Source of the DNA: a virus
Virus record (IMG/VR): IMGVR_UViG_3300017708_000771
Coordinates: 1 to 29,971 of that record
Length of the DNA: 29,971 bases
Reading direction: 5' to 3' (one strand)
Numbering within the stretch: the stretch's first letter is position 1; the number at the start of each line of letters is the position of its first letter. The position numbers were made by a program, and so were the translations under genes. A model generated the notes under the pieces. That model saw nothing but the letters and a program-made list of their open reading frames with translations. It was not told the DNA's origin and did not search any database. Below are positions 3,502-26,590 of this stretch, piece by piece.

Positions 3502-3741
3502 ATGGATAAAAAAAAGTTAATCATGCAATTTAGTATACAAATGCTAAAGCTTGATCTGAGTAAGCAGTTTATATGTGAAAAATTAAGCATTTCTCTGCCT
3601 ACATTAAACTCTAGGATCAGAGATCCTAAGAGGTGGACTATTGATAATTTATTAAACCTAAAAAAAATAGGATTCAGTTATGACTATTACGAACAATTAT
3701 TACGAGAATTTAAGAAAAATTCCAGTAAGGGAGCATTTTGA
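3502..3741 (+). CDS. Small helix-turn-helix DNA-binding protein
   Basis: This 79-residue protein has the pattern of a Cro/Xre-like helix-turn-helix: QFICEKLSISLPTLNSRI at about 22-39 fits helix 2, turn and recognition helix, followed by WTIDNLLNLKKIGF. It is the first gene after the promoter at 3478-3485 and precedes the recombination genes, so it may autoregulate or control this early unit. Its 3' end overlaps the next gene by 62 bases in another frame. An ATG at 3498 gives only a three-codon peptide, leaving 3502 as the start. It is the only regulator-like protein seen in the genome. The DNA-binding fold is likely; target and role are not visible. Confidence 0.62.
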   Translation: MDKKKLIMQFSIQMLKLDLSKQFICEKLSISLPTLNSRIRDPKRWTIDNLLNLKKIGFSYDYYEQLLREFKKNSSKGAF

Positions 3742-4207
3742 CAAAAAAGGCAACCTTGACTATTTAGCTTGGTCTAAGGCTTGGGACTTCTTAAAGAGAC
3801 ATCATCCATCAGCAGAATATTGGGTGGTGAAAAATGAAAAAGACAATCTAAACTACTTCACTAATAATAACTCAGGGTGGGTTACTGTGGTAGTATCTAT
3901 AGATGGTCTGGATCATTCAGTGGATCTGGCTATTATGGATAACAGAAATAAAGCCATTACCAAAGATGAAATCACTTCTGTAGATGTGATGAATACAATT
4001 CAGAGGGCAACTGTTAAAGCCTGTGCGATGCATGGGCTAGGAATAAATGCTTGGACTGGAGAGAAAGATTATATATCAGAGGCGGATTTTAATAAAATGA
4101 TTGAGGCTAATGATTATAATCTAGCGATCAAAACATACAATAATTTTCAATTAACAGCCGAACAAAAAAATAGGCTATCAACTAAATTTAAAAAACAAAA
4201 ATCATGA
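3680..4207 (+). CDS. Single-strand annealing protein, Sak3/DUF1071 family
   Basis: This 175-residue protein matches the DUF1071 (SSAP_Sak) pattern: LDYLAWSKAWDFLKRHHPSA at about 26-45, an internal VTVVVSIDGLDHSVDLAIMD strand pair, and TIQRATVKACAMHGLGINAW near 106-125. Members anneal complementary single-stranded DNA in phage recombination and often suffice with an exonuclease for Red-like exchange, here probably the PD-(D/E)XK exonuclease at 4479. The start at 3680 lies inside the upstream HTH gene; no later in-frame ATG precedes the conserved core, so the 62-base overlap seems real. The stop overlaps the next ATG by four bases. The family call is from motif recall, not a search. Confidence 0.8.
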   Translation: MTITNNYYENLRKIPVREHFDKKGNLDYLAWSKAWDFLKRHHPSAEYWVVKNEKDNLNYFTNNNSGWVTVVVSIDGLDHSVDLAIMDNRNKAITKDEITSVDVMNTIQRATVKACAMHGLGINAWTGEKDYISEADFNKMIEANDYNLAIKTYNNFQLTAEQKNRLSTKFKKQKS

Positions 4208-4476
4208 GTAATAAACCAGTAGAAAAACTTTGGGGATACCTCAAAAAAACAGAATTAGAAGAAATTTTAAAAAATCCATCAGCAGTCAAAAAACATGAGA
4301 AGTATGGCGAACAGATTTTAATTCAGGCTGCAAAATGGGAGAGTGGAAATATTACAGTCCAGTTTTGGGATAAAGAAAGCAACAAAAATATTGATGTTTT
4401 AGTCTTAAGACCAGATAGTAATAATCCTGTATCTGTAGATAAAACAGATGATAATGATTCAGATTTTGCCTTTTAG
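4204..4476 (+). CDS. Small protein with SSB-like acidic C-terminal tip
   Basis: This 90-residue protein starts four bases inside the annealing-protein gene and ends two bases before the exonuclease gene, so it is part of the recombination cassette. No classical SSB signature is obvious, although ILIQAAKWESGNITVQFWD at 39-57 is beta-rich. Its C-terminus, DKTDDNDSDFAF, is a disordered acidic tail ending in hydrophobic residues, as in bacterial SSB proteins (consensus DDDIPF), which dock repair and replication enzymes. A single-strand DNA-binding or accessory role is therefore inferred from the tip and the neighbours. It could equally be an unrelated recombination accessory protein. Confidence 0.5.
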   Translation: MSNKPVEKLWGYLKKTELEEILKNPSAVKKHEKYGEQILIQAAKWESGNITVQFWDKESNKNIDVLVLRPDSNNPVSVDKTDDNDSDFAF

Positions 4477-4478
4477 TT

Positions 4479-5258
4479 ATGATTATAGTAAAAGACACTA
4501 ATCAAGAATATCATTCTAAAGAAAATTATATCAGCGCTAGTGGGCTTAAATCAATTTGGCTCACTAGTGTATATGATTATAATAGAATAGAGTATGAAGA
4601 TAAACCAGCTTATAGGCTGGGTACTATGATCCATGAGATGATTCTAGAGCCTGAAGAGTTTAAAGAAAATTATCACCTACCTAAAGAAAAAATAGATAGG
4701 CGAACAAAAGAAGGAAAAGAAAAGTTTGCAGAACTCAGTAACATGGGTAAAATAGTAGCTACTACAGATGAGGTTTTTGTAGTCAATGGAGTTAAAAAAT
4801 CCATAGAGTCAGATGATGAAATGGCAAAACTGGCTAGAAAGTATCTTGAAGGTCAGGCTGAGCTTTCGCATTATTTAGAGTTTCAAGGTCTTAATGTAAG
4901 AGTAAGACCAGATATGAAAGGTCAAGACTTTATATCGGATATTAAGACAGCTCAATTCAATTCTAGAGGCTTTGGAAAAAAAGAGTTTAGAAGTCATGTT
5001 AGGTCTTTTGGTTATCATCTGCAGGCTGCTTTCTATTCTGATATGCTGGAGATAGATCCTAGAAATTTTAAATTTATCTGGATTGAAAAAAAGGCGCCTT
5101 ATAGAATAGCTGTAGCTACTTTAAATGATGATCAGATTGATGAAGGTAGGGCTGGATATTTGCAAGCTATTGAGGATTGGAAGTTATATATTGAAACTGG
5201 ATTAGAGAAAAGATTTAATGATTCAGATGTTTTATTTGATGGAAGTATAGAGCTATGA
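4479..5258 (+). CDS. RecE-like PD-(D/E)XK exonuclease (DUF3799 type)
   Basis: This 259-residue protein has the pattern of phage exonuclease VIII-like nucleases: GTMIHEMILEPEEF near 48-61, RVRPDM with D145, SDIKTA with D154 and K156 as the PD-(D/E)XK core, and GYHLQAAFYSDML at 178-190 with the His-x-Gln-x-x-x-Tyr signature. Such enzymes resect one DNA strand to make single strands for annealing. Pairing with the Sak3-type protein at 3680 gives a two-component recombinase like RecE/RecT. It follows the SSB-like gene by two bases and its stop overlaps the DnaA-like gene by four. Motifs and context agree well. Confidence 0.82.
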   Translation: MIIVKDTNQEYHSKENYISASGLKSIWLTSVYDYNRIEYEDKPAYRLGTMIHEMILEPEEFKENYHLPKEKIDRRTKEGKEKFAELSNMGKIVATTDEVFVVNGVKKSIESDDEMAKLARKYLEGQAELSHYLEFQGLNVRVRPDMKGQDFISDIKTAQFNSRGFGKKEFRSHVRSFGYHLQAAFYSDMLEIDPRNFKFIWIEKKAPYRIAVATLNDDQIDEGRAGYLQAIEDWKLYIETGLEKRFNDSDVLFDGSIEL

Positions 5259-5701
5259 ATGAAATAGATATTTTTGTATATAGAACAGTATGCGATCATT
5301 TTGGAATAGACATCCAAAACAAGACCAGAAGAAGGAACTATGTAGATGGTAGAAGGATTTATTTTAAGATTTTAAAGGAGTTAAATCCAGTAAGATCTTT
5401 AGCTAGTTTAGGGAAATCTCTAGATAGGATTAAATTTGATCATGCTACAGTGCTGCATCATTTAAAAGAAATAAATCATTTATTATCTACTGAGGATGGC
5501 TTAGCTCTAAAGTTTAGTAATATTTTAGAAATTTGTATGAACTTTAAGAAAGATAATAAGGATATAGTTTTTGTAAATAATTTAAAATATGAGTTCAAAC
5601 CCATTCGAGAAGTATCTGGGCAAGGAGGACAAGATGCAGGAGTCAGTAATGAAGTATATCAGCACAAAGTATTCTGGAACTTTTGCAGTTCACATTCCTA
5701 A
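5255..5701 (+). CDS. Stand-alone DnaA domain IV-like DNA-binding protein
   Basis: Residues 1-75 of this 148-residue protein match the C-terminal DNA-binding domain of DnaA: an initial VCDHFGIDI helix, RRNYVDGRRIYFKILKELN at 27-44, and the DnaA signature FDHATVLHHLKEINHLL at 61-77. In DnaA this domain reads DnaA boxes. The AAA+ ATPase domain is absent, so it cannot be a complete initiator by itself; it might recognise a phage origin or compete for host DnaA sites. The residues after about 118 are encoded by the overlapping start of the VRR-NUC gene and look like read-through tail. It lies between two nuclease genes and about 500 bases before an almost pure A+T tract. The domain call is strong; the function is inferred. 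Confidence 0.8.
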   Translation: MNEIDIFVYRTVCDHFGIDIQNKTRRRNYVDGRRIYFKILKELNPVRSLASLGKSLDRIKFDHATVLHHLKEINHLLSTEDGLALKFSNILEICMNFKKDNKDIVFVNNLKYEFKPIREVSGQGGQDAGVSNEVYQHKVFWNFCSSHS

Positions 5702-5960
5702 CGAAGGTAAAAGATCAAAGTTTGAACAGTTTAAGCTTAAAAAGATGGGAGTAGTCGCTGGGATGCCAGATGTAATGATTTTTGATCCAAGAGGGATTTA
5801 CAGCGGCTTAGCCATCGAATTAAAAGCTGGGTATAACAAACCTACAGAGAGCCAAAAAAAGTGTCTTAGAGAGCTTGAGAATCGCAAATGGAAGGTAATG
5901 TGGTCTAATTCACTTGATGAAGTTTTAAAATCAATAGATAATTATTTAAAAGATGTATAA
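5589..5960 (+). CDS. VRR-NUC domain nuclease
   Basis: This protein of up to 123 residues carries the complete VRR-NUC fold of the PD-(D/E)XK superfamily: HIPNEGKRS at 35-43, VAGMPDVMIF with D61, AIELKAG with E77 and K79, and PTESQ with Q89. Family members act on branched or flapped DNA, and phages often carry them as small resolvase-like nucleases. The listed ATG gives a 113-base overlap with the DnaA-like gene. An alternative ATG at 5634 is preceded five bases upstream by AAGGAGG (5622-5628) and would give 108 residues with all catalytic motifs intact. It overlaps the next small gene by eight bases. The family is clear; the start is not. Confidence 0.8.
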   Translation: MSSNPFEKYLGKEDKMQESVMKYISTKYSGTFAVHIPNEGKRSKFEQFKLKKMGVVAGMPDVMIFDPRGIYSGLAIELKAGYNKPTESQKKCLRELENRKWKVMWSNSLDEVLKSIDNYLKDV

Positions 5961-6204
5961 AAAAAGAATGATATTCTGGGATCAAAATAGGCAGAGAATT
6001 AGATTCTCAGCTACTAATGACTTCAAGGGTATAGAAAATTATTCTTTTATAGGCTTTTCAAGTGAGCATGAATTTGAAATTTTGCTGGAGGTTCTTTTTG
6101 ATAGATATGGAGATCAAAATATTACTACAAACCAAATCCTAACTATTTACCAGAATTTCATGAAGTTTTTAGATAATCTTAAAAATCTTACTTCTGGTAT
6201 ATAA
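5953..6204 (+). CDS. Hypothetical protein in the replication block
   Basis: I do not recognise this 83-residue protein. It starts eight bases inside the VRR-NUC gene and its stop opens the A+T tract at 6199-6280. It has an aromatic- and basic-rich N-terminus (MYKKRMIFWDQNRQRIRF) and two probable amphipathic helices (EHEFEILLEVLFDRYG and ILTIYQNFMKFLDNLKNL). There is no signal peptide, membrane segment or Cys cluster. The tight overlap supports real expression with the replication genes, perhaps as an accessory to a neighbouring nuclease or origin protein, but no function can be assigned. Confidence 0.55.
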   Translation: MYKKRMIFWDQNRQRIRFSATNDFKGIENYSFIGFSSEHEFEILLEVLFDRYGDQNITTNQILTIYQNFMKFLDNLKNLTSGI

Positions 6205-6280
6205 TAATATAATATATATAATAATATATATAAGCTATTATATAAAATAAATAAAATAAAATATATATATATTATATAAC
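6199..6280 (+). other. Almost pure A+T tract, candidate origin or DNA-unwinding element
   Basis: About 80 bases contain only a single GC step (6234-6235) and one terminal C besides A and T, arranged as overlapping ATAAT, TATATA and AAATAA repeats. It is the only sizeable gap in the replication block and lies between the nuclease cluster with the DnaA-like gene and the resolvase-like and primase-helicase genes. Such tracts are typical of duplex-unwinding elements. I found no perfect DnaA box (TTATCCACA) beside it, so the origin call is inference. It could instead be a promoter region for 6286-8410, although no clear TAnnTTTG box is present. Confidence 0.45.
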
Positions 6281-6285
6281 TACCG

Positions 6286-6759
6286 ATGATCAAACAAACT
6301 GAAAAAGTAAAAAAAATGATCTCTGATGGGTCAAAAGCGGAGGATCTTTTTGAGTATGTTATGAAGATGCTTAGGCGCCCTGTTAAAAGATCTTCTACGA
6401 ATCAAAATAAATATCAGCACATTGATTTTTTTATAGGAGATAAATCCTATGATGTGAAAAGTAGAAGGGATCAGAATACTGTATGGTTAGAGGCAAAAGG
6501 AATTTATGGTCATGATGGCTGGCTTTTAGGAAAAGCAACATACATAGTAATTTATTACATAGAGCTGCAGGAGTTTGTCTTTTATCTTAGAGAAGATTTA
6601 GTTAGTTTTGCTAGAAAATTTACAAAAAAATCTAAGGTTAAAAGATATTATAGATGGTACACTAGAGAAAAATGGGGTCGAAAAGATGCCTGTTTATTAG
6701 TAAAAAAATCAGATTTATTACAATTAGAAATTCAAACAATTACAATTACAAATGTTTAA
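6286..6759 (+). CDS. Putative PD-(D/E)XK-type nuclease (resolvase-like)
   Basis: This 157-residue protein has an arrangement of acidic and basic residues typical of PD-(D/E)XK nucleases: YQHIDFFIGD with D47, SYDVKSRR with D56 and K58, and WLEAKGIYGHDGWLLGKATY with E69 and K71, at residues 43-87. Similar sequences with the DVK and GWL.GKA.YI pattern occur in many phages of Bacteroidetes and are treated as uncharacterised or Holliday-junction-resolvase-like. It starts just after the A+T tract and overlaps the primase-helicase gene by eight bases, which fits a replication or recombination role. The C-terminal half is Lys/Arg/Tyr-rich. The fold is plausible; the substrate is unknown. Confidence 0.55.
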   Translation: MIKQTEKVKKMISDGSKAEDLFEYVMKMLRRPVKRSSTNQNKYQHIDFFIGDKSYDVKSRRDQNTVWLEAKGIYGHDGWLLGKATYIVIYYIELQEFVFYLREDLVSFARKFTKKSKVKRYYRWYTREKWGRKDACLLVKKSDLLQLEIQTITITNV

Positions 6760-8410
6760 CGATTTTATAGAGATAGGCATATATCCTAAAGGAAATGCCT
6801 CTAAACAGAAATTAGTCTGTCCAAAATGCTCACAGACTAGAAAAAACAAAACAGATAAATCCTTATCAGTAGACATTCTCAGAGGTCTATATAATTGCCA
6901 TAATTGTGGCTGGAAGGGAAATGTAAAAATCAAAGAGCGAAAGGAATTTACTAGACCAGTCAAAAATGATTCTGGTCTATCACCTAGTGTCTTAAAGTAT
7001 TTTGAGAATAGAGGTATCTCTGAAAGTACTTTAGTAAATTGGAAAATCACTGAATCAGTAGAATACTTTCCTCAAACTAAAGATAAAAGAGCTGCTATAA
7101 ATTTTAATTATTACAGAGAGGGCGAGCTTATAAATGTAAAATACAGAGACAGTGATAAGAACTTTAAATTGGTTTCTGGAGCTGAGCTGATCTTTTATGG
7201 GCTAGATAATATTAAAGACTCAAAAACTGTCTACATAACTGAAGGAGAAATAGATGCATTAAGTTTAAATGAATGTGGAATATATTCAGTTTGTTCAGTA
7301 CCTAATGGAGCCTCAAAAGGCTCCCAGAGATTAGAATATTTAGACAACAGCTGGGAATATTTTAAAGACATAGAGAATATAATTATATGTACTGATAACG
7401 ATTCAGCTGGGCTATCACTTAGGCATGAATTAGCTAGAAGATTTGGACAGTATAGATGCCAGTATTTAGATTTTAAAGATTTCAAAGATGCTAATGAGGT
7501 CTTAGTAAAGAGTGGATCAAAAGTCTTAAGAGAAATACTAGAGAATCCTTTAAGCTTTCCCTTGGAGGGAGTTCTAAACATAGATACTATATGGGATAAT
7601 GTTTTAAACTGGAATAGTAATGGAGTTAAAAATTACTCTATAGGAATGGGAGCTGATGCTAACTTTAAAGTAATGATGGGAGAGTGGACTACCATAACAG
7701 GGATCCCAAACTCAGGAAAGTCAGATGTGCTGGATCAAATTTGCGTAAATATGGCGCTAATGCATGATCATAAGATAGCTATGTTTAGTCCAGAGTCATT
7801 TCCTTATGAGGCGCATATTAGAAGGCTGGCTAATAAAATTAATTCTACAGATTGCAGTAAAGAAATGCTACAGCAAACAAAGACATTCATAGAAGATCAT
7901 TTTTTCTTTATTAAGATTGACATTGAAAATATCAGTCTAAAAAACATCCTAGATAGATTTAAGGATTTAGTATTTCAAAAAGGAATTAATATCTGTGTGA
8001 TAGATCCTTGGAATATGCTACAGCATGATCAGCAGTATGATCTTAGCTATATCTCTAAGATGCTTGGACAGATAACTCAGTTTTGTCAGAAAACAAATAC
8101 TCATCTATTTCTAGTAGCTCACCCTAGGAAAATGGAATACTTCAATGGCACATACAAAGTGCCTACTCCTTATGATATTTCTGGATCATCTGACTTTTTT
8201 AATAAGTCATTTTCAAATATTACTGTTTATAGAAAACTTAATAATAGGACTAAGTATGGCTCAGATCTTGTAGAGGTTCATGTGCAGAAAGTAAAAAGAA
8301 GAGAAAATGGAACTCAAGGAGTTTTTGAAATAGCTCCAGATTTTAAGAATGGAGGTTTTTATAGAACTATGGGAGAAAACAACAAGGTAATAATAACTGA
8401 AATAGATTAA
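6752..8410 (+). CDS. T7 gp4-like primase-helicase
   Basis: This 552-residue protein joins a primase and a replicative helicase, as in phage T7 gp4 and Twinkle. A zinc-binding domain holds C23, C26, C50 and C53. The Toprim region has TEGEID with E165 and CTDNDSAG with D215 and D217. The helicase part has Walker A GIPNSGKS at 317-324, a Walker B-like ICVIDPWN at 414-421 and LVAHPRK near 454-460. It would unwind the phage fork 5'-3' and lay down primers for the host polymerase, since no phage polymerase is visible. It is the last gene of the replication unit and its start overlaps the upstream nuclease gene by eight bases. Confidence 0.9.
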   Translation: MFNDFIEIGIYPKGNASKQKLVCPKCSQTRKNKTDKSLSVDILRGLYNCHNCGWKGNVKIKERKEFTRPVKNDSGLSPSVLKYFENRGISESTLVNWKITESVEYFPQTKDKRAAINFNYYREGELINVKYRDSDKNFKLVSGAELIFYGLDNIKDSKTVYITEGEIDALSLNECGIYSVCSVPNGASKGSQRLEYLDNSWEYFKDIENIIICTDNDSAGLSLRHELARRFGQYRCQYLDFKDFKDANEVLVKSGSKVLREILENPLSFPLEGVLNIDTIWDNVLNWNSNGVKNYSIGMGADANFKVMMGEWTTITGIPNSGKSDVLDQICVNMALMHDHKIAMFSPESFPYEAHIRRLANKINSTDCSKEMLQQTKTFIEDHFFFIKIDIENISLKNILDRFKDLVFQKGINICVIDPWNMLQHDQQYDLSYISKMLGQITQFCQKTNTHLFLVAHPRKMEYFNGTYKVPTPYDISGSSDFFNKSFSNITVYRKLNNRTKYGSDLVEVHVQKVKRRENGTQGVFEIAPDFKNGGFYRTMGENNKVIITEID

Positions 8411-8433: not shown

Positions 8434-8595
8434 ATGGGAGAGGTTACTTTTTATCCGATTATGGGACTTGTATTGGGAGCTAATTATTATAGCTCAGAGA
8501 CTGATGATATAGATCTGGGTATTTTTAAAAAGCATACTGTAGAAATATTTTTGTTTTTATTTGGAATTAATATTAACTGGTACACTGACGTATAA
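8434..8595 (+). CDS. Small hypothetical protein upstream of terminase
   Basis: This 53-residue open frame (MGEVTFYPIMGLVLGANYYS at the start, FLFLFGININWYTDV at the end) fills the gap between the promoter at 8412 and the terminase small subunit. Its stop overlaps the terminase ATG in a TAATG junction, the same coupling seen at many gene borders here, which argues that it is real. Residues 38-50 are hydrophobic but too short for a confident membrane helix. Small open frames in this position recur in Bacteroidetes phages. The function is unknown; it may mainly serve to couple translation into the terminase gene. Confidence 0.55.
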   Translation: MGEVTFYPIMGLVLGANYYSSETDDIDLGIFKKHTVEIFLFLFGININWYTDV

Positions 8596-8957
8596 TGGCA
8601 TACGATACTAAAGAACTTGAGAAGAAAGCTCTGGCAGCAATCAAGAAAAATAAGCTGATGTTTATTGAGCATATAGTGGCTTTTTTGCCTTGTAGTAGAG
8701 AGACTTTTTATCATCATAAATTACACAAATCTGACACTATAAAAAAGGCTGTGGAGGAGATGAGAATAGGCAAAAAGACTAAGATGCTTTCTAATTGGAT
8801 TGATTCTGAATCTAATGCCTTACAGATAGCAGCTATGAAAATGATAGCTACAGAGGAAGAATCTCATAGGCTGTCAGGAACTAGAACTGAGATAAAACAT
8901 AAAGGCGCAATAGAATCTACACTGATTGAATGGAAGCCAGCGGAACGCAAAGAGTAG
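8595..8957 (+). CDS. terS: Terminase small subunit
   Basis: This 120-residue protein is predicted to be the DNA-recognition subunit of the packaging terminase. Its N-terminal half has a helix-turn-helix pattern (MFIEHIVAFLPCSRETFYHH at about 22-41), as in small terminases, followed by a helical oligomerisation segment (SESNALQIAAMKMIATEEES) and a charged tail. The large subunit begins inside its last 28 bases, and the portal follows, which is the normal terS-terL-portal order. It was assigned from position and architecture more than from a distinctive motif. Confidence 0.75.
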   Translation: MAYDTKELEKKALAAIKKNKLMFIEHIVAFLPCSRETFYHHKLHKSDTIKKAVEEMRIGKKTKMLSNWIDSESNALQIAAMKMIATEEESHRLSGTRTEIKHKGAIESTLIEWKPAERKE

Positions 8958-10114
8958 AGCAGTATTTAAATAGACAGTTTTATGATTTACTATACTCTGA
9001 TAAAAGATATCGTGTACATAGTGGTGGATCCAGATCTGGAAAGTCTTGGGCTTGCTGCCAGTTTATTGCCTACTTATTACAGACCACAGATAAACCTTTG
9101 TTAATTGATATAGTGAGAAAGACTCTACCGAGTCTAAGAGGATCAGTAATGAGAGATATGATCCAAATACTTCAGGAGACTAATATCTATTGGGAGGGTG
9201 ATCACAATAAAGCTGAGAATACATTCACCTATAAAGGATCTACTCTTTCTTTTATTTCCTTAGATATGGCGCAAAAGATTAGAGGTAGAAAAAGAGATAT
9301 AGCTTTACTGGAGGAGGCTAATGAGCTGACTCAAGAGGACTTCAGGCAGATAGATTTAAGAACAGAGCAGTTCTTAATTTTTACTTATAATCCATCTGAT
9401 GTAACTAGCTGGCTATATGATTTGCCAGAAGAGGAAACAGATGAATGGATAACGACATTTAGAGATAATCAGTTTTTATCTGATAATATAAAAAGAAGTA
9501 TAGAGGCGCTAAAGGATAAGGATCCAGATTTTTATAGGGTCTTTGGAGAAGGTCAGAGAGCTGTATTTAGTCAGCGCCAGATATTTAATAACTGGAACTT
9601 CTTAGATTACAGAGATTTTCCAGAGACTGATGAGGTTTATTTAGGGATCGACTTTGGATACTCAAATGATCCAGCGGCAGTCTGTGAGGTCAGAAGAGTG
9701 GGTGGGGATCTTTATGTGCATGAGGTATGCTACAGGCTAGGAATGACAAATGGAGATCTATCTAGGTATATATCAGATCTAGGGTATAAAGACACTTTGT
9801 GTATATATGATTCAGCAGAGCCAAAGAGTGGAGAGGAGCTGAGAAGAATAGATGAGGTAGGTAATATGTATAAAGCCAGTAAAAAAGGTCAAGGATCTAT
9901 TAATGCTGGAATAAGCTTTTTAAAAGAATTTAATATACATTTATCTGTAGAGTCTAAGAACTTTAAGAAAGAGTATGAGAACTATCTCTGGGATGTTTTA
10001 AAAGATGGAACTATCATAAATAAGCCATGCGATAAATGGAATCACTTGCATGATAGCCTGAGATATTGTGTTTATACAGTATGGGGAGATAGATCCAGCT
10101 TCTTTGTAATTTAA
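8930..10114 (+). CDS. terL: Terminase large subunit
   Basis: This 394-residue protein is the packaging ATPase-nuclease. Walker A is GGSRSGKS at 32-39, Walker B with the catalytic glutamate is IALLEEA at 124-130, and the coupling motif is TYNP at 152-155. The RNase H-like nuclease domain begins with GIDFGYSNDPAA containing D241, and the final acidic cluster lies in WNHLHDSLRY near the C-terminus. Spacing and length fit the PBSX/Terminase_3 type. The start at 8930 lies within terS; the next in-frame Met is after Walker A, so this start is the only sensible one. Type of packaging (cos or headful) cannot be read from the sequence. Confidence 0.93.
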   Translation: MEASGTQRVEQYLNRQFYDLLYSDKRYRVHSGGSRSGKSWACCQFIAYLLQTTDKPLLIDIVRKTLPSLRGSVMRDMIQILQETNIYWEGDHNKAENTFTYKGSTLSFISLDMAQKIRGRKRDIALLEEANELTQEDFRQIDLRTEQFLIFTYNPSDVTSWLYDLPEEETDEWITTFRDNQFLSDNIKRSIEALKDKDPDFYRVFGEGQRAVFSQRQIFNNWNFLDYRDFPETDEVYLGIDFGYSNDPAAVCEVRRVGGDLYVHEVCYRLGMTNGDLSRYISDLGYKDTLCIYDSAEPKSGEELRRIDEVGNMYKASKKGQGSINAGISFLKEFNIHLSVESKNFKKEYENYLWDVLKDGTIINKPCDKWNHLHDSLRYCVYTVWGDRSSFFVI

Positions 10115-18038: not shown

Positions 18039-18410
18039 TTGGAGATTAATCACTTAGGCTGCTTTGCTGAGTATCTGTTTTGTGCTGAATGTACTAAAAG
18101 AGGATATACTGTTTCAATGCCTATTCTAGACTCTAGTATATATGATTGTGTAGTGGACACTGGTAAGGATCTATATAAGATCCAGATCAAGTCATCTGAA
18201 AAAACTCCTAGAGGAAACGAGAACTCAGTTAATATTTCTTTAGATAATACTAAAAACAAATACACAAAAGACAAAGTAGATTATTTTGCTATTTACAGCG
18301 GTTTTTACGGAGGTTTTTTTGTTATACCTAACTCAGGCTCCATGAAAGCATTTAGAGCCTCTAGAAGCGGTAAAAATGCTATCTACTATGATAGATTTGA
18401 TTTTGTTTAG
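18039..18410 (+). CDS. Putative PD-(D/E)XK endonuclease
   Basis: This 123-residue protein has the pattern of small PD-(D/E)XK endonucleases related to group I intron and archaeal Holliday-junction enzymes: GCFAEYLFCAECTKRGYTVS at 7-26 with E11, DSSIYDCVVD at 31-40 with D36, and KIQIKSS at 47-53 with Q49 and K51. The substrate is unknown; a host-DNA or competitor-phage nuclease, or a resolvase, is possible. The start is TTG at 18039, because an in-frame stop at 18021 bars upstream ATGs and the next ATG would remove E11. It has its own terminator upstream and promoter, so it is a single-gene unit inside the accessory island. Confidence 0.68.
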   Translation: MEINHLGCFAEYLFCAECTKRGYTVSMPILDSSIYDCVVDTGKDLYKIQIKSSEKTPRGNENSVNISLDNTKNKYTKDKVDYFAIYSGFYGGFFVIPNSGSMKAFRASRSGKNAIYYDRFDFV

Positions 18411-26562: not shown

Positions 26563-26590
26563 TTGAGAAAATTAAAAAGTATTATATTTG
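26563..26590 (+). promoter_or_regulatory. Full -33/-7 promoter of the major tail gene
   Basis: TTG at 26563-26565 is followed 17 bases later by TATATTTG at 26583-26590, a complete Bacteroidetes-type promoter, and then by TAAAAAATA. The ATG at 26607 lies 16 bases after the box. This is the best promoter in the window, before a gene needed in many copies. Confidence 0.75.

Follow-up and report, generated by a model that had tools for sequence, protein, structure and literature searches.

Among the described proteins in which DnaA domain IV occurs alone is GafY of Caulobacter, first named HdaB and read as a replication protein, a reading later revised to activation of gene transfer agent genes (PMC9632790, PMC11150451). 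Both it and the N-terminal portion of Rhodobacter GafA represent DnaA domain IV without the rest of DnaA and are associated with a cluster of phage-like genes (PMC9632790, PMC9638019, PMC11150451). Genes of this kind are also common in Bacteroidota phages, where they are annotated merely as “DnaA” or “replication initiator”; Cellulophaga phage phi10:1, Olleya phage Harreka_1, and Flavobacterium phage mumin carry stand-alone domain IV genes (annotated as DnaA or DnaA HTH), and for Polaribacter phages P12002L/S the likeness to the protein studied here comes from the “DnaA” annotation only. Two other known systems bear on this locus: the stand-alone VRR-Nuc proteins (psNUC, stNUC, and saNUC; PDB 4qbl and relatives), which are dimeric and cleave four-way junctions (PMC4103454), and the lambda-type origin, which lies within the initiator gene (O protein, ori).

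We analyzed a virus record of 29,971 bp (the window, i.e., the whole stretch of DNA), the ends of which overlap by 11 bp and meet inside a single tape-measure gene; two relatives (30.2 and 29.3 kb) have identical 123-bp ends. All the main genes are on the + strand. The series begins with a Sak single-strand annealing protein (3680 to 4207; PF06378, E value of 1.9e-26) and a 90-amino-acid (aa) protein (4204 to 4476), followed by a RecE-like exonuclease (4479 to 5258; DUF3799, E value of 2.7e-20; phrog_412 exonuclease VIII, E value of 6e-51) immediately 5' of the gene for the DnaA domain IV protein, here DnaA-IV (5255 to 5701). Next come a VRR-NUC nuclease (5589 to 5960), an 83-aa conserved protein recognized by tblastn synteny, with no family match above the cutoff (5953 to 6204), an A+T-only tract (6198 to 6279), and a 157-aa protein that resembles a small PD-(D/E)XK nuclease (6286 to 6759; motif seen by eye, no family match). 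The primase-helicase, with TOPRIM and DnaB/RecA-type helicase parts (6752 to 8410; Toprim_2, E value of 7e-12; phrog_239, E value of 1.6e-85), precedes a probable terminase small subunit, so named from synteny and its position before TerL (8595 to 8957), and a PBSX-type terminase large subunit that matches annotated members of that family (8930 to 10114). The C termini of the 90-aa protein (DDNDSDFAF) and of its L014 homologue (EEIDSPF) resemble the acidic tip of single-strand-binding proteins, and the 90-aa protein may be a phage SSB.

DnaA-IV and the primase-helicase, and subsequently the fused protein described below, served as queries for scans of IMG/VR, which gave about a hundred contigs sharing the gene order of the window. 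In a tree of the primase-helicase, the window and five of them (L011, L012, L013, L014, and L091) formed one branch with full support, referred to here as the window clade. Flavobacterium, Olleya, and Cellulophaga are suggested as hosts only by the isolated relatives. A scan of genomes for host range was discarded because most of the genes that the pattern retrieved were ordinary clostridial dnaA, with a few doubtful contigs besides. Also rejected were two “Bacteriophage sp.” GenBank records with full-length DnaA (MT835965 and MT835859; L008 and L009), which are bacterial dnaA loci in DNA that looks bacterial.

The first-pass annotation had described the product of the gene at 5255 as a complete DnaA domain IV without the AAA+ motor, and this was borne out. 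The conserved domain covers approximately residues 1 to 104 of the 148 aa, with a match to Bac_DnaA_C (PF08299) at residues 8 to 73 (E value of 6.3e-8; 33 bits against a curated cutoff of 31.5). The nearest solved structure by sequence was 1j1v, E. coli DnaA domain IV with DnaA-box DNA, and an AlphaFold model made with 34 phage homologues, confident over residues 1 to 100, superimposed on it with a TM score of 0.84 (by target) and an rmsd of 1.6 Å. No AAA+ part was found within these 148 aa, and the score against TIGR00362 (34.6 bits) was far under its cutoff (343.9). The protein shares its fold, its length, and almost all of the residues that read DNA with bacterial DnaA domain IV but differs in lacking domains I to III and in having Ala at the position of T435 (E. 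coli numbering) and, in the window clade, a 3-residue insertion directly before the recognition helix. Since domains I to III are missing, it would have no ATPase, oligomerization, or strand-opening activity by itself.

Among 43 distinct phage homologues, the equivalents of R399, R407, and H434 were identical throughout, that of D433 was kept in 37, T436 was T or S, and T435 was replaced by Ala in 36, a residue also present in one bacterial DnaA compared. The window protein keeps R399, D433, and H434 and has the Ala. In E. coli DnaA, the R399A and T435M changes make box binding defective (PMC5742627). Because the DNA-reading residues are kept, DNA binding by DnaA-IV would probably be sequence specific.

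The gene that overlaps DnaA-IV encodes a 123-aa nuclease of the PD-(D/E)XK, Holliday-junction-resolvase type (PF08774, E value of 5.3e-6, 26.9 bits against a cutoff of 23.8; phrog_824 and phrog_5702). The active-site pattern PD...ExK...Q appears as GMPD, IELK, and SQKK, and over 20 aligned rows the E and K were invariant and the P, D, and Q were present in at least 90%. The last 37 codons of the DnaA-IV gene lie within the overlap (113 bp), with VRR-NUC in the +1 frame, and in the window the two are separate genes. A programmed frameshift linking them is not favored, given that an ATG of the nuclease frame itself directly follows a stop codon and that in L063 the two genes are separated by a gap. 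Substitutions in the core of DnaA-IV were mostly at third codon positions. Within the overlap, they fell at the third positions of the VRR frame, which showed fewer amino acid changes, so selection there acts on the nuclease and the DnaA-IV tail is a passenger.

Both parts formed a single reading frame of ca. 220 to 240 codons in 46 of 95 loci, a count that takes in near-identical contigs from different samples; they were split in 47, and DnaA-IV was missing in 2. Both Pfam domains exceeded their cutoffs in the fusion of L065, and in that of L083 DnaA-IV was clear and VRR-NUC scored 23.0 against 23.8. In a model of the fused protein, both domains were folded (mean pLDDT of 88) and matched 4qbl and 1j1v. 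The nuclease half resembles the stand-alone VRR-Nuc enzymes in sequence and fold, but a DnaA-type DNA-reading domain comes before it or is joined to it in one polypeptide, which is not so in those enzymes. In a phylogeny of VRR domains, the fused state required three changes, one of them forced by well-supported branches, and the window clade grouped with the fused L207 (support of 84/83, not starred). None of the annotated phage records covered 80% of a fused protein, and the combination is a new element found in no annotated phage.

The association extends to a second phage group (L007, L027, L029, L030, L031, L049, L057, L069, L070, and L138), in which the VRR-NUC gene is located 0.26 to 0.61 kb upstream of DnaA-IV. 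Over 46 phage representatives, every VRR-NUC gene detected (21/21) was within 0.61 kb of DnaA-IV and on the same strand, although the profiles derive from genes adjoining DnaA-IV and are biased toward detecting adjacent copies. The pairing is not universal, since many DnaA-IV genes of other phages have no adjacent VRR-NUC: none was found beside DnaA-IV in 25 of the 46 representatives, nor in the regions examined around the genes of phi10:1, Harreka_1, and mumin. In another phage group (L018, L034, L060, and L149), a ParB_N-domain protein comes after DnaA-IV.

Approximately 500 bp 3' of the DnaA-IV gene, the first-pass annotation had noticed an 80-base tract nearly free of G and C. Recounting confirmed this description, with 2 G/C in the 80 bp from 6198 to 6277; no other part of the window is as rich in A+T (the next lowest value was 12). 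Two runs within it, of 36 and 44 bp, consist only of A and T, and in 100 third-order Markov simulations the minimum was 7 G/C and the longest A/T run was 34. The tract has a TA-rich left arm, an A-rich center (AAATAAATAAAATAAAA), and a TA-rich right arm. An intergenic A+T tract was found in the same place in the five relatives; the A+T content and the rough three-part plan stay across the clade, and the sequence itself is not conserved. No lambda-type iterons were detected beside it in the interval from 5900 to 6800, and only A/T-only strings repeat inside it. It contains no match to the Bacteroidota promoter (TTG N17-23 TAnnTTTG).

Outside the window clade, all loci covering this slot had an O/DnaD-like initiator gene between the gene for the 83-aa protein and the slot of the small nuclease-like gene, which is also present in most sister phages inspected. 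The family corresponds to phrog_19658 (its best members have E values of 1e-23 to 1e-29) and HTH_36. One of these proteins shows, in its N-terminal part, 60 to 65% identity to phage proteins annotated for replication initiation. A profile of the O-like family had no match in the window or elsewhere in the window clade. The A+T minimum was close to the middle of the gene in 32 of 34 O genes, and 22 of the 34 had repeats of 12 to 22 bp just upstream of it (P ≤ 0.05; ca. 2 expected), for instance, three repeats of 22 to 23 bp in L022 and four of 15 bp in L094. The sister phages, and likewise Cellulophaga phage phi39:1, thus have the lambda-type layout, i.e., an O-like gene with iterons and then an A+T tract. 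The window differs in lacking the O-like gene and the iterons, although the extreme A+T tract is present.

Because sister phages place the O-like gene with its embedded origin in exactly this slot, the tract makes a good candidate origin, as had been proposed at first sight, and it is probably an origin unwinding element of phage replication. GC skew gave no guidance here, as its detrended minimum falls at different places in four relatives and does not point consistently to the tract. Strings of 19 to 25 bp made of A and T that are common to the window tract and the O-gene tracts exceeded shuffled sequences for L023 and L026 (strings as long were found in 3 and 9 of 300 shuffles, respectively), and other loci showed less or none. 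These common strings were too weak to derive the window tract from the O-gene tracts, and that descent was rejected. The primase-helicase tree is unrooted and does not resolve the base of the group; the window clade presumably lost the O-like gene, as opposed to the relatives having gained it. The clade is a natural case of phages that lack the O-type initiator of their relatives and yet have the origin slot filled by an A+T tract, and it allows asking what opens an origin without its initiator.

Putting these results together, we consider it moderately probable that DnaA-IV reads DNA as one half of a two-part nuclease and that the tract is an origin unwinding element in a clade without an O-like initiator gene. 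DnaA-IV would bind duplex DNA, probably at DnaA-box-like sites, and would carry or position VRR-NUC, the product of the overlapping gene; judging from its family, this enzyme would cut four-way and other branched DNA. With the upstream Sak protein and RecE-like exonuclease, the pair would make up a phage recombination set, its halves being one polypeptide in many relatives and two overlapping genes in the window clade. As many related viruses fuse both halves, DnaA-IV is likelier to steer a nuclease than to start replication. A variant that we consider quite improbable would have the site-directed nuclease cut DnaA-box-like sites, in host origins or in phage replication structures, and the freed DnaA-IV replace the O-type initiator at the tract of the window clade.

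The initial proposal that DnaA-IV is an initiator that recruits the primase-helicase fared worse. Under it, after loss of the O-like gene, DnaA-IV would bind the origin, open the A+T tract that occupies the origin slot, and bring in the primase-helicase; it is the sole recognized initiator-type DNA-binding fold in the replication module of the clade, and the clade without the O-like gene is also the one that bears the insertion before the recognition helix. However, DnaA-IV stands in the same operon slot in sister phages that keep the O-like initiator, and in two of these (L092, 647 to 1045, and L098, 2615 to 2944) a different small HTH protein, with weak HTH matches only, takes its place directly before VRR-NUC. 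This coexistence and replacement, together with the 46 fused loci, disfavor a dedicated initiator, which DnaA-IV is probably not. The DNA at the tract also argues against this role: besides the lack of iterons, perfect DnaA boxes had not been seen beside it at the outset and the search agreed (TTATNCACA, none in the whole window against 1.1 expected), near matches showed no excess there, and boxes were not enriched in phages of the synteny group. The residues that read DNA are nearly identical between DnaA-IV of the window and that of L014, but no specific motif common to the tracts of the two was obvious. We therefore regard DnaA-IV as very unlikely to be the agent that opens the tract. No more credence is due to a host-directed role, in which DnaA-IV would occupy host DnaA boxes and block host initiation or send VRR-NUC to oriC. 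The box-reading residues are nearly invariant, the Ala at the T435 position has its counterpart in a bacterial DnaA, and the synteny group has rather fewer canonical boxes than expected (5 against 11.1). Nevertheless, this deficit is weak, at the 4th percentile of scrambles, and is absent in the second VRR-NUC group (5 seen against 3.5 expected), and the host-directed role appears very doubtful.

The main rival to a nuclease-steering DnaA-IV is a transcription regulator of the GafY/HdaB type that binds upstream of phage promoters and activates middle or late genes. GafY, first described as the replication regulator HdaB, is itself a stand-alone DnaA domain IV protein that activates prophage-like genes (PMC9632790, PMC11150451). 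Unlike GafY and GafA, which are host encoded, alphaproteobacterial, and partnered by GafZ, DnaA-IV of the window is phage encoded and tied to VRR-NUC, and a nuclease fusion is hard to square with a pure activator. The terminase was downstream and on the same strand in all 23 DnaA-IV clusters that showed one, often within 0.8 kb and directly after DnaA-IV in ca. 11, and a conserved TAACTTTG element without a good upstream TTG box marks the primase-helicase/terminase junction; a single rightward operon, however, explains the same-strand order, and no common operator was found. We consider this role unlikely in general, although, given the position of DnaA-IV upstream of the terminase on the same strand, it may hold at least in such phages. 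A different alternative concerns the tract alone and is compatible with any reading of the DnaA-IV protein, namely, that the tract is a by-product, whether an untranslated spacer, an RNA hairpin, or a recombination joint between exchanged nuclease genes. Its inverted repeats folded better than shuffled sequences in L013 (z score of −4.1) and L014 (z score of −3.1), whereas those of the window and L012 did not, and the hairpin was rejected as the cause of the tract. The gene that follows (6286 to 6759) was 72% identical to that of L013 and 46 to 48% identical to those of L014 and L012, unlike its neighbors; recombination at the tract has probably exchanged it. Against a by-product are the exact correspondence of the slot with the embedded origins of sister phages and the extreme A+T content retained in all six clade members; we find this explanation rather unlikely, though less so than the regulator, and prefer the origin unwinding element.

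For the stand-alone DnaA domain IV genes of Bacteroidota phages, the fusions offer a concrete, testable function, the targeting of a resolvase-type nuclease. They also caution against taking DnaA-IV for an initiator, an error made once with HdaB/GafY.

Some further features were noted in the window. Bacteroidota-type −7 elements that recur in relatives were located at ca. 3480, before the early operon (TATCTTTG), and at ca. 8418, where the junction element mentioned above lies, and a full promoter match was found in an intergenic gap (26563 to 26590). Amid the structural genes, the open reading frame from 18039 to 18410 encodes another PD-(D/E)XK endonuclease (PDDEXK_5, E value of 1.5e-13).
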